Assembly: GCF_003150675.1 (NCBI RefSeq)
Contig: NZ_QGGB01000001.1
Coordinates: forward strand, 1-64,000
Length of the DNA stretch: 64,000 nucleotides
Direction of reading: 5' to 3'
Origin: Rhodohalobacter mucosus
GTDB taxonomy: Bacteria; Bacteroidota; Rhodothermia; Balneolales; Balneolaceae
Position 1 is the first letter of the stretch. Each line of letters begins with the position of its first letter. This document shows, in pieces, positions 49,399 through 61,758 of the stretch. A model generated the notes under the pieces. That model was not told the origin of the DNA. It did not search any database and saw only the letters and a list, made by a program, of their open reading frames with translations. The position numbers and the translations under genes are program-made.

Positions 49399-51609
49399 TT
49401 AAAACTCCCACCGGAGCATCACATTCACATTGCGGCCGGGCATGGGGGCGTTGCGGTTTTCAACGCGGCTGAGGTGGTCGCGGTAGCGCTCGTTGAGCAG
49501 GTTGTCGAGGCGCATGCTGAGGGTAACTCCGTGGCCAAGCCGGTAGCCGGCATCTGCACCGATCAGTACATAGCCATCTGTCGGACGTTCATTTGGTGCG
49601 ACACGGTCCTGCCGGCTCACAATCCGTACGCGCGGACCCGCATGCCATTTTCCCTGTTCGGCCCTGAGGGAAGCGTAAACCCGGAACGGGGGAATAAAGG
49701 TAAGATCGTTGCGGTTGCCGGTATACTCGTACCCGCGCACATAATCGGCTCCCGCTTCCGCCGACAATGTCCGGCTAAGCCTGAGGCCTGCCATTATCTC
49801 GAAACCATAAAGGATTGCATCTTTGGATCCATACTCGAAAATCGGAAGTCCGGAGGGTTGATGTGTCTCACCCGTGGGAAAGAAATCAACGTAGTTGCTG
49901 ATTCGATTGGCAAAAAGAGAGATCTGCCAGCTGATCCGCTCGCCGCTGTAGTCTGCAAAGGCATCCGCACCCAGGCTGATTTCATTTTGCAGATTCGGGT
50001 TGCCGCGATCGAACGATCCGGCCGCCGCATGCGGGGCGAAGGAGTAGAGCTCCTCGATGGTAGGCGTGCGATAGGCTCGCGCCACCTGGAATCCGGTCGT
50101 AAAACGGTCACTTCGTGAGTAGTTCAGCCCCACTGCACCGGAAAAGATCAAGTCGGTTCGGTCTTCGAATATGGATGCATCCCTGAACAGTTCATTGGTT
50201 TTCACGCGCGTATCTTTCCACTCCATACGCAGTCCGGTTTTCATGGAGAGTGCATCGGTAAGCCCGATCTCCTCATAGATAAAGCCCGCCAGAAACGTAC
50301 CCGCTGCATTGGGAGTGAGTGCATCCCCTCCCCCAAGCTGCAGGGCCGACCGGTTAAAACTCAGCCCCAGGGCTCCCTCGAATGGGCCGGTTTTGCGATG
50401 GCGCAGGAGAAGGGAGCTGCTCAGCGTCTGCTGGGCAAAGGTTATCGCCACAAACTCCTCCACAGTGCCCTGCGGAACCCTGCTGATCTCCACTTCGTCG
50501 TGACTGTAGTCGCTGTAGTGCATACGCAGTTCCGCATGCTCAAAAAAGCGGTCCATATCCATGGTTGATATGCTCTGGATGTTGAGACGGTTCATGCGGA
50601 TTTCGATCGACTCGTTCAGATCATCAATCATTTCCGGCAGACCATAATCAAAGTTCATACCGGTGATAGAGAGGCCCGTCTCCACGGGGCCTAATCGATA
50701 TCCCAGCCCGCCTCCAAAGCTGAGGTTTCGAAGCGCCGTATCGGGAAGCGTACCATCCGGCGTGGTGAGATCACCGCCGTTTCGGTAGATCATGCGTCCG
50801 GTCACCGCAAACCGGTCGGTTCCGTAGCGCGTGCTTACGAGTCCTGCCCCCATGCTGTTCATGCTGGAAACGTGGGAGGCAAGCGCCGAACGGGAACCGG
50901 GATCCCACTCACGCGGCATATCGGCGCTAAATAGATTCACCACCCCGCCAATGGCGCCGGAACCATACATCAGGCTTGCAGGGCCGCGCACCACTTCCAC
51001 GCGGTCCATAGCCAGGGGATCCAGGCCTACGGCATGGTCAACGGCAGTACCCGAGAGGTCGCCCATGCGTTCACCGTTTTGCAATACAAGCACCCGGTCG
51101 CCATCAAAACCACGGATAACGGGACGTGCCGGGGCCGAACCGAAGGAGCGGGTAGTCACGCCCGGATTGCCGTCCAGGATCTCTCCCAAGCTGGGCGCAG
51201 CACGCTGCTGCAGCTGCTCAGCACTGAGCGACTGTGCCGGCTGGTACTGAACCGAGCGTCCGATCGGGGAGGCGGTTACGATGACATCGTCCGATTGTAC
51301 CACTGAGGCACGGAGTTCAAAGACAGCTTCTTCTTCCGAAGGATGACTGATCTCCACAATGAGCGGCTCAAAGCCCAAAGAGCGCACTTCTAAGGTCCAT
51401 TTTCCGTGATCCAGATTTTCCAGTGAAAACCGCCCGCTGTCATCAGCCGATGCGCCTTTTTGCAGAGCTTCAATGAAAACGGTGGCCCCCGGAACAGGCT
51501 CTCCGCTTCCGGTTTCCACAACGGTACCTGAAAAGGCTGTTTGTGCATGAGCACTGAACTCGTTAAGATTCAATAGTGTACAAAAAAGTAAAGCGTATAG
51601 CGGTTTCAT
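49399..51609 (-). CDS. TonB-dependent receptor, metal-uptake (ZnuD-like) type
   Basis: An outer-membrane TonB-dependent transporter. The ATG at 51609 (MKPLYALLFCTLL) is preferred over an upstream in-frame ATG at 51672; it gives 736 residues with a signal peptide ending SAHAQ. A CarboxypepD_reg-like domain (about 25-105; GTVVETGSGEPVPGATV) precedes the plug with QNGERMGDLSGTAVDHAVGL and DRVEVVRGPASLMYGSGAIG, which resembles zinc/copper receptors of the ZnuD group. A 22-strand barrel ends in FMLRWEF-type (VMLRWEF). The substrate is inferred, not proven. A candidate operator lies at 51685-51700 and a remnant of a regulator gene upstream of it. Confidence 0.85.
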   Translation of the reverse strand: MKPLYALLFCTLLNLNEFSAHAQTAFSGTVVETGSGEPVPGATVFIEALQKGASADDSGRFSLENLDHGKWTLEVRSLGFEPLIVEISHPSEEEAVFELRASVVQSDDVIVTASPIGRSVQYQPAQSLSAEQLQQRAAPSLGEILDGNPGVTTRSFGSAPARPVIRGFDGDRVLVLQNGERMGDLSGTAVDHAVGLDPLAMDRVEVVRGPASLMYGSGAIGGVVNLFSADMPREWDPGSRSALASHVSSMNSMGAGLVSTRYGTDRFAVTGRMIYRNGGDLTTPDGTLPDTALRNLSFGGGLGYRLGPVETGLSITGMNFDYGLPEMIDDLNESIEIRMNRLNIQSISTMDMDRFFEHAELRMHYSDYSHDEVEISRVPQGTVEEFVAITFAQQTLSSSLLLRHRKTGPFEGALGLSFNRSALQLGGGDALTPNAAGTFLAGFIYEEIGLTDALSMKTGLRMEWKDTRVKTNELFRDASIFEDRTDLIFSGAVGLNYSRSDRFTTGFQVARAYRTPTIEELYSFAPHAAAGSFDRGNPNLQNEISLGADAFADYSGERISWQISLFANRISNYVDFFPTGETHQPSGLPIFEYGSKDAILYGFEIMAGLRLSRTLSAEAGADYVRGYEYTGNRNDLTFIPPFRVYASLRAEQGKWHAGPRVRIVSRQDRVAPNERPTDGYVLIGADAGYRLGHGVTLSMRLDNLLNERYRDHLSRVENRNAPMPGRNVNVMLRWEF

Positions 51610-51684
51610 AATCCTTTCTGATGTGAATGAAGCAGTTTGTATACCGGAGGCTGCCGTCCGAATCATGCACAAATTTAAATAATA

Positions 51685-51800: not shown

Positions 51801-51911
51801 TTACGCAGTGTGGCTCTCGACACAGACCTGGCACTCCACCCACTCTTCGCCTGGAATGTGCTCGATGGCTTCCGGGCTGTTGCCCTTCTCAAATGCAGGT
51901 TTAAACAGAAC
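51801..51911 (-). pseudogene. Truncated remnant of the RHH-zinc-ribbon regulator gene
   Basis: The minus-strand frame ending at the TAA at 51801-51803 reads VLFKPAFEKGNSPEAIEHIP, then GEEWVECQVCVESHTA. It matches residues 76-107 of the regulator encoded at 60812-61144 with 28 of 32 identities (differences V/A, S/G, T/Q, R/V), including one CxxC pair of its zinc ribbon. An in-frame stop lies a few codons upstream and no start exists, so about 75 N-terminal residues with the DNA-binding domain are missing. It is a decayed duplicate located just upstream of the TonB receptor promoter. Confidence 0.8.
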
Positions 51912-51962
51912 ATCTCTAAATCGCTTTTAATGATCAATCGCCAGAACAACACGATGATCACG

Positions 51963-52007
51963 CTGAGTGTCCTGAGTGTCCTGAGTGTCCTGAGTGTCCT
52001 GAGTGTA
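51963..52007. repeat. 9-bp tandem repeat CTGAGTGTC
   Basis: Four perfect copies of CTGAGTGTC (51963-51998) plus a fifth ending in A (51999-52007). A 12-bp perfect palindrome, CGACACGTGTCG, lies at 52062-52073. The stretch is in the gene-poor region between the regulator remnant and a truncated gene. Confidence 0.85.
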
Positions 52008-52161
52008 TTTTAAAAAACATGTCAAAATAGACCTTTGCTAAAGTGCATCTTTACGATCGAACGACACGTGTCGATTTGTAACGATATATCAGGGCTGCCT
52101 TTCTAATCAGTTCATACATTTTTCATTTTACCTCCGAGGCCCTCCTTCAAACGTCGTTTAG

Positions 52162-60811: not shown

Positions 60812-61144
60812 TTATCGGGCCTGTTCAACACACCTGGTGCACTCAACCCACTCTTCGCTTGGAATGTGCTCGATGGCTTCCGGGCTGTTTCCTTTTTCAA
60901 ACACGGGCTTGAAGAGAACATTGCCTTCAGAATGTTCGGTGCCGCAGGAGTGGCAGCTTACCTCATGGTCCATGCGTATCGGCGTATAGCCTGTGATAAC
61001 CCAGCCGTCATGCCCCTGGTGGGCGGCCAGGCTCTCAAGTGCTGCTCGTACCGTCAGCGATTTGTTTCCTTTGTAATATTTTTCCGACAACTTGTCCAGA
61101 AGGTCGACGGTCGCATTGTCGAGCGTAAAATTGAGCCGTTTCAT
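60812..61144 (-). CDS. Ribbon-helix-helix regulator with a C-terminal zinc ribbon
   Basis: 110 residues. The N-terminal 45 residues (RLNFTLDNATVDLLDKLSEK and SLTVRAALESLAAHQ) form a CopG/Arc-type ribbon-helix-helix that binds DNA as a dimer. The C-terminal half carries two CxxC pairs (C64/C67 and C102/C105), a zinc-ribbon-like metal site. It overlaps the MerC gene by 4 bp (ATGA), so it is made with it, and a perfect palindrome upstream of the operon is its probable operator. This layout suggests a self-regulating metal-responsive repressor, possibly sensing Zn or Hg; metal sensing is inferred. A truncated copy lies at 51801-51911. Confidence 0.75.
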   Translation of the reverse strand: MKRLNFTLDNATVDLLDKLSEKYYKGNKSLTVRAALESLAAHQGHDGWVITGYTPIRMDHEVSCHSCGTEHSEGNVLFKPVFEKGNSPEAIEHIPSEEWVECTRCVEQAR

Positions 61145-61584
61145 GGTTTCTCCTGCTGATTATCCGGATCGCTTGCAACCGGATGATGTTTATGTGATGC
61201 AATGTTACAGGTACGATGATGCCTGTAATTTAACCAATGCCCCCATATCAATACAATACTTCCTGCAACGGTCACTCCGGTTTCGAACCAAAGGCCGATA
61301 AGGTAGTGGCCAACCAGCCATCCGATCAGGATCAAAGCAAAACCGCCCATAAGCAGGCCGGTGATCTTTTTGTCGTAGTGGCTTCGTCTGGATGCAAAGT
61401 AGACCGTAGGCGCTATGAGAGCTGCAAAGATGGGGTGGGCCAGCTCGTGCATGAACGTGGCAGAAGCCACAGGTAAAATTGCGATCAGGACAGGGAAAAA
61501 CAGACAATGAACGGCACAAATGGTGGACACGCTCAGCCCGAATCGGTCCCATAAAATAGAAGCGGTGATACTCTTTTCAGCCAA
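61141..61584 (-). CDS. MerC domain membrane protein
   Basis: A 147-residue inner-membrane protein with four hydrophobic helices: STICAVHCLFFPVLIAILPV (with the Cys pair CAVHC), IFAALIAPTVYFAS, LLMGGFALILIGWLVGHYLI and VTVAGSIVLIWGHWLN. The helix/Cys pattern fits the MerC family, in which the pair binds Hg(II) in mercury-resistance operons; related Bacteroidota genes occur with zinc-uptake regulators. The C-terminal His-rich tail (HRTCNIASHKHHP) is another possible metal site. The start is TTG at 61584. No merA or merR is present, so a general metal role is more likely than mercury resistance. First gene of the two-gene operon. Confidence 0.78.
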   Translation of the reverse strand: MAEKSITASILWDRFGLSVSTICAVHCLFFPVLIAILPVASATFMHELAHPIFAALIAPTVYFASRRSHYDKKITGLLMGGFALILIGWLVGHYLIGLWFETGVTVAGSIVLIWGHWLNYRHHRTCNIASHKHHPVASDPDNQQEKP

Positions 61585-61609
61585 TTTAATTTAAATCATT
61601 TACATATTC

Positions 61610-61631
61610 AGTGTGTATTAATATACACACT
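61610..61631. promoter_or_regulatory. 22-bp palindromic operator of the MerC-RHH operon
   Basis: Arms AGTGTGTAT (61610-61618) and ATACACACT (61623-61631) are perfect inverted repeats around TAAT, 26-47 bp upstream of the MerC start codon. Ribbon-helix-helix repressors bind such two-fold sites, and the only such regulator gene here is the second gene of the same operon. Confidence 0.65.
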
Positions 61632-61758
61632 TTAATGAAACAGGTGCAAGGATCGGGCTCATTCTTCTTCATTTGATGGAGCAGACGGGTATGAACCGAC
61701 GCTGCGGCACTTTGGACTGGGGGCACTCTATGTTTATTGTCCCAATTAAATAAACCCT

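Follow-up and report, generated by a model that had tools for sequence, protein, structure and literature searches.

The 110-residue protein encoded directly after merC in Rhodohalobacter mucosus is probably a zinc-dependent repressor of zinc uptake, Zur-like in role, which would act as a ribbon-helix-helix (RHH) dimer with a C-terminal Cys4 site. On balance, the combination of RHH and Cys4 is also considered to represent a previously undescribed structural class of zinc sensor. Equipped with an operator and a regulon of its own, this sensor would have replaced Zur across much of Balneolaceae and related families, in alternation with a Fur-family regulator at the position beside merC, and a branch of MerC would serve as a zinc uptake protein. 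The evidence was obtained by comparison of related genomes and comprises a protein family, its invariant Cys4, a putative operator that is conserved and tied to the protein, overlap of this operator with a predicted promoter, gene company of a zinc type and the alternation with the Fur-family gene. The features found in the window, i.e., the whole stretch of 64,000 nucleotides that was analysed, are given in Table 1.

Table 1. Features of the merC-regulator locus and of the receptor locus in the window
Feature	Position	Strand	Basis or remark
merC-like membrane protein	61141..61584	-	TTG start, CxxHC motif, His-rich; Pfam PF03203, E=5e-19
110-aa RHH + 2xCxxC regulator candidate	60812..61144	-	ORF, family profile, conservation
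Ribbon-helix-helix domain, residues 1-43	61016..61144	-	RHH_1 matches, NikR match, conservation
Cys4 element C64-x2-C67 ... C102-x2-C105, presumed zinc ribbon	60830..60955	-	Invariant in 56 distinct sequences
22-bp operator palindrome AGTGTGTAT-N4-ATACACACT = AGTGTGTATTAATATACACACT	61610..61631	.	Conserved upstream in 52/60 family loci
Predicted -35 element TTGCAC	61644..61649	-	TTG spacing conserved in related operators
Predicted -10 element TATATT	61620..61625	-	Inside operator; spacing to -35 = 18 bp
ZnuD-like TonB-dependent receptor	49399..51672	-	Pfam TonB receptor + plug; by eye same kind as L069 receptor
Remnant of second regulator copy, residues 71-107 only	51816..51926	-	Directly upstream of ZnuD-like receptor

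The merC operon and the candidate regulator family

The anatomy given in the preliminary description, namely a MerC protein with the motif CAVHC, a 4-bp overlap with the gene of a 110-residue protein and a 22-bp palindrome with 9-bp arms, proved to be exact in its coordinates. The overlap is formed by ATGA. The MerC domain was matched across its full length (PF03203, 69 bits against a cut-off of 27.6). The C-x-x-H-C motif, which occurs once and reads CAVHC in the window, was kept together with several histidines in the MerC of 33 relatives. A TTG start codon (61584) is apparently used by merC and was kept in most relatives.

When searched by itself against Pfam, the 110-residue protein of the window matched no RHH model and no named family. 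Among its relatives, 16 of 26 matched RHH_1, with a best value of 3.9e-4, and the family profile found NikR of E. coli over the RHH region (E=6e-4) in an alignment spanning residues 1-74. Helices were predicted at residues 10-23 and 28-42 in an AlphaFold2 model. With an N-terminal strand and two helices recognised by profiles, the family may be placed in the RHH (MetJ/Arc/CopG/NikR) superfamily, as had been claimed earlier. In an alignment of 56 distinct regulator sequences, R3, N5 and T7, which lie in the strand presumed to contact DNA, were invariant, and the operator is conserved as well; as is usual for the superfamily, a dimer would bind the palindrome through this strand.

All four cysteines of the two CxxC pairs were likewise invariant in this alignment. 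The zinc ribbon proposed in the preliminary description was borne out as regards these cysteines and less so as regards its fold: the AlphaFold2 model, built from 12 close sequences, was of low confidence (pLDDT 72, pTM 0.47), a Foldseek search of the PDB with it gave no significant match, and the zinc-finger matches of the family in Pfam were weak. The model being too weak to name it, the C-terminal fold was left unassigned, and a zinc ribbon is regarded as plausible from the cysteine pattern.

The regulator was present in 47 of 92 Balneolaceae genomes and in 65 of 244 genomes of the class, distributed over 24 genera. When 394 genomes sampled from the phylum were searched, a single weak match came from outside the class, and it was interrupted by stop codons. 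The regulator gene was nearly always close to merC. In three genomes merC was absent and its slot in the operon was filled by a ZIP-like gene (L078, L080 and L090), and at L236-L238 the regulator gene and an exporter or receptor operon were divergently oriented. At two loci (L058 and L061), an unrelated gene of approximately 204 aa with an HTH/transposase-like N-terminus lay on the opposite strand between rhh and the TonB receptor, at about +425 to +1200 from rhh.

Gene company and alternation with a Fur-family gene

The module had been described as self-contained. This did not hold, since the operator was also found upstream of a second operon elsewhere in the same genome (C4:53453) and in relatives; this operon encodes a small secreted protein, a lipoprotein and a TonB receptor. 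The best NCBIfam model of this receptor was ZnuD, below its cut-off, as it was for the receptor frequently encoded after rhh. Also scoring below their cut-offs were a neighbouring COG0523 GTPase (top model ZigA, E=5e-90) and a neighbouring ZIP-like protein (PF02535, 1.3e-5). An ABC ATPase with an FtsX/MacB permease and a DUF3299-like protein, as well as GTP cyclohydrolase I, were frequent neighbours, and an Fe/Mn SOD was found in some neighbourhoods. The ABC/FtsX/DUF3299-like neighbours resemble PA4063-PA4066 of P. aeruginosa, which include a MacB exporter and are under Zur control (PMC11481552). COG0523 proteins, ZnuD-type receptors and folE2 are members of Zur regulons (PMC6103462). Judged by these sequence matches, the neighbours and the second operon resemble zinc-starvation genes; zinc would be the metal indicated by this company, several families of which also serve other metals.

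A second line of evidence came from the neighbours of merC. At the merC loci of Balneolaceae, merC adjoined the RHH gene in 41 cases, a short Fur-family gene in 12, neither in 35 and both in none. The RHH gene was absent from all 12 genomes in which merC had a Fur-family neighbour. A hypergeometric probability computed by hand for this alternation was approximately 1e-4, with relatedness of the genomes ignored. The Fur-family proteins beside merC matched the Zur model weakly, and a role as Zur may be presumed for them. Two observations count against the preferred reading here: the 35 merC loci with neither neighbour, and the extra Fur-family genes that some RHH carriers possessed besides Fur. 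Those of the latter that were read mostly adjoined metal-efflux ATPases, but L180 (G059) had folE and a COG0523 gene as neighbours. Fur-family and P-type ATPase genes that are almost identical occurred in different genera (L165, L174 and L178), and mercuric reductase above cut-off lay on the same contig in several such cases (e.g., G021:C13, G027:C3 and G045:C37). These contigs look like a recently shared metal-resistance island.

Both lines of evidence bear on the reading in which the regulator binds the operator while the Cys4 site is a redox switch or purely structural, as it could be, and the true signal is oxidation or another ligand. The protein has one obvious candidate metal site only, Zn-Cys4 sites can serve as thiol switches, and the SOD gene in some neighbourhoods would fit. 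Nevertheless, this reading is unlikely, since the broader neighbourhood is that of zinc uptake and the RHH gene is exchanged with a Zur-like gene beside merC.

The soft-metal reading, which the preliminary description had derived from MerC, fared worse than its account of the regulator. According to it, the RHH repressor would sense a soft or toxic metal (Hg, Cu or Cd), release the operator on metal binding and induce a MerC-based resistance or detoxification operon. The name of the MerC family speaks for this, Cys4 sites bind soft metals too, and a gene for a MerA-like flavoprotein is divergent to the second operator. However, this flavoprotein lacks the terminal Cys pair and scores under the MerA cut-off, and it was rejected as evidence for mercury. 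MerA did not track the regulator: it was found above cut-off in 4 of 47 carriers versus 7 of 45 non-carriers, and it was absent at that threshold from the genome studied here. No MerR, MerA, MerT or MerP was recognised in the neighbourhoods that were read. The genes nearby point to import and starvation rather than to efflux, and MerC here has a single CxxHC and many conserved histidines. The mercury reading of the module is accordingly disfavoured, and sensing of a soft metal in general is judged improbable.

The palindrome and the predicted promoter

The palindrome, with arms of 9+4+9, lies approximately 26 bp upstream of the merC start codon. A lone palindrome of this kind in 64 kb is within chance by itself, but its conservation is beyond chance. 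Of the 60 upstream regions examined in the family, 52 held a copy matching at least 16 of 18 positions, and none of 1200 shuffled controls reached 15 of 18; the genomes and loci of the family are related and not independent, so that such counts overstate the number of events. A palindrome unconserved upstream of homologous operons had been named beforehand as the outcome that would speak against the module, and the result came out in its favour. The operator of the family has the form AGTGTGTAT-N3/4-ATACACACT, with 21- and 22-bp versions. Eight loci, which count against the preferred reading, had no good operator: one was cut short, some had a degenerate copy, and none was present at L233 and L234.

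Genome-wide scans for the operator were performed as pattern searches. The operator was retained in the ZIP-like operons that have no merC (L078, L080 and L090) and in the divergent operons (L236-L238), and it was not found around the merC genes of RHH-less genomes. When up to two mismatches were allowed, 45 RHH-less Balneolaceae genomes gave conserved coding sequence, scattered single sites and two true-looking sites; both of the latter came from incomplete MAGs, and one was just upstream of a truncated merC. Because the site is kept without merC and is nearly absent without the regulator, it may be concluded that it tracks the regulator and not merC. A recurrent near-match, AGTGTCYACAAAAGTRCACACT, lay within a conserved reading frame (L129 and L130) and also occurred in regulator-less genomes; it was discarded, as were the sites C6:168539 and C5:2622 of this genome, which are inside reading frames.

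The operator also coincides with a predicted promoter. With the -10 box taken as the TATNNN of the operator, a TTG was found 17 bp (19 loci) or 18 bp (19 loci) upstream of it at 38 of 51 loci, whereas no other spacing that was tried occurred at more than 4 of 51; these loci are related, and the counts are not independent. Since the operator covers the -10 box, repression by occlusion of the promoter is favoured, and this is the natural reading that the sequences suggest.

These observations leave little room for two further readings. That another factor binds the palindrome, with the RHH gene as a passenger, is very improbable: binding by the RHH protein is itself deduced, and the length of the site varies between 21 and 22 bp, yet the operator accompanies the RHH gene across genera, disappears from merC where that gene is missing and persists where merC is missing. 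A toxin-antitoxin pair of an RHH antitoxin and a MerC membrane toxin, of which a small two-gene operon with a 4-bp overlap, an RHH protein and a palindrome would be typical, is hardly credible given that merC is widely found without the RHH gene, that the RHH gene occurs without merC and that the operator also stands before a second, unlinked operon.

Proposed action, known regulators and a second regulator copy

For the preferred reading, a zinc-responsive repressor, the following mechanism is proposed. When zinc is ample, the Cys4 site would be filled, and the regulator would bind AGTGTGTAT-N3/4-ATACACACT over the -10 box and silence merC-rhh, its own operon, together with the other operons bearing the palindrome. 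When zinc is scarce, the regulator would lose zinc and leave the DNA, and the resulting derepression would allow production of MerC-like and other uptake proteins. In this scheme we infer that the regulator physically binds and represses, that it responds to zinc, that it is active when loaded with zinc and that this MerC transports zinc. The comparative evidence supports the earlier proposal of an autoregulatory palindrome and of an RHH regulator that is linked to metal and carries a Cys4 element at its C-terminus.

The protein was placed as a candidate metal-responsive repressor of the RHH superfamily, outside Zur and NikR. With Zur it shares its apparent targets (ZnuD-like receptor, COG0523 GTPase, MacB-type exporter and ZIP-like transporter), a palindrome over the promoter and, in related genomes, the same position beside merC. 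However, Zur has Fur winged-helix and dimerisation domains, whereas the regulator studied here has RHH and Cys4 and a different operator; PF01475 (FUR) was not matched by any family member tested. With NikR it shares the RHH N-terminus and the logic of a metal-linked repressor. The ACT domain and nickel site of NikR are missing from this protein of 110 aa, no member of the family matched the ACT domain, and the C-terminus carries the two CxxC pairs instead; its operator and zinc-type targets differ as well. AdcR, a MarR-family zinc uptake repressor, is likewise a non-Fur protein in the job of Zur (PMC6103462), although it belongs to an unrelated fold family. The MerC of mercury resistance operons shares the full-length Pfam MerC domain with the protein of the window, which differs in being His-rich, in its zinc-type company and in having no other mer genes alongside.

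The sensors that control zinc uptake have been reviewed as Fur-family Zur and MarR-family AdcR (PMC6103462). In the open literature, neither an RHH zinc sensor nor a described class with the layout of RHH and C-terminal Cys4 was found, which agrees with the preliminary description; many subscription papers were outside the scope of this search. If confirmed, an RHH protein would be a third family controlling zinc uptake, beyond Zur and AdcR (PMC6103462). RHH metal sensing would be extended beyond NikR, and some MerC proteins would handle zinc and not mercury. Regulons could also be predicted for a group that is common in the environment but has little genetics.

The window contains, in addition, a ZnuD-like receptor gene preceded by the remnant of a second regulator copy. 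The best NCBIfam model of the L069 receptor, to which this receptor was likened, was ZnuD, and in many genomes relatives of the receptor are encoded directly downstream of an intact regulator. It seems that a regulator-receptor operon was split or duplicated in this genome. Upstream of the remnant, a short tandem repeat of CAGGACACT units (51960-52022) adjoins an operator-like half site.
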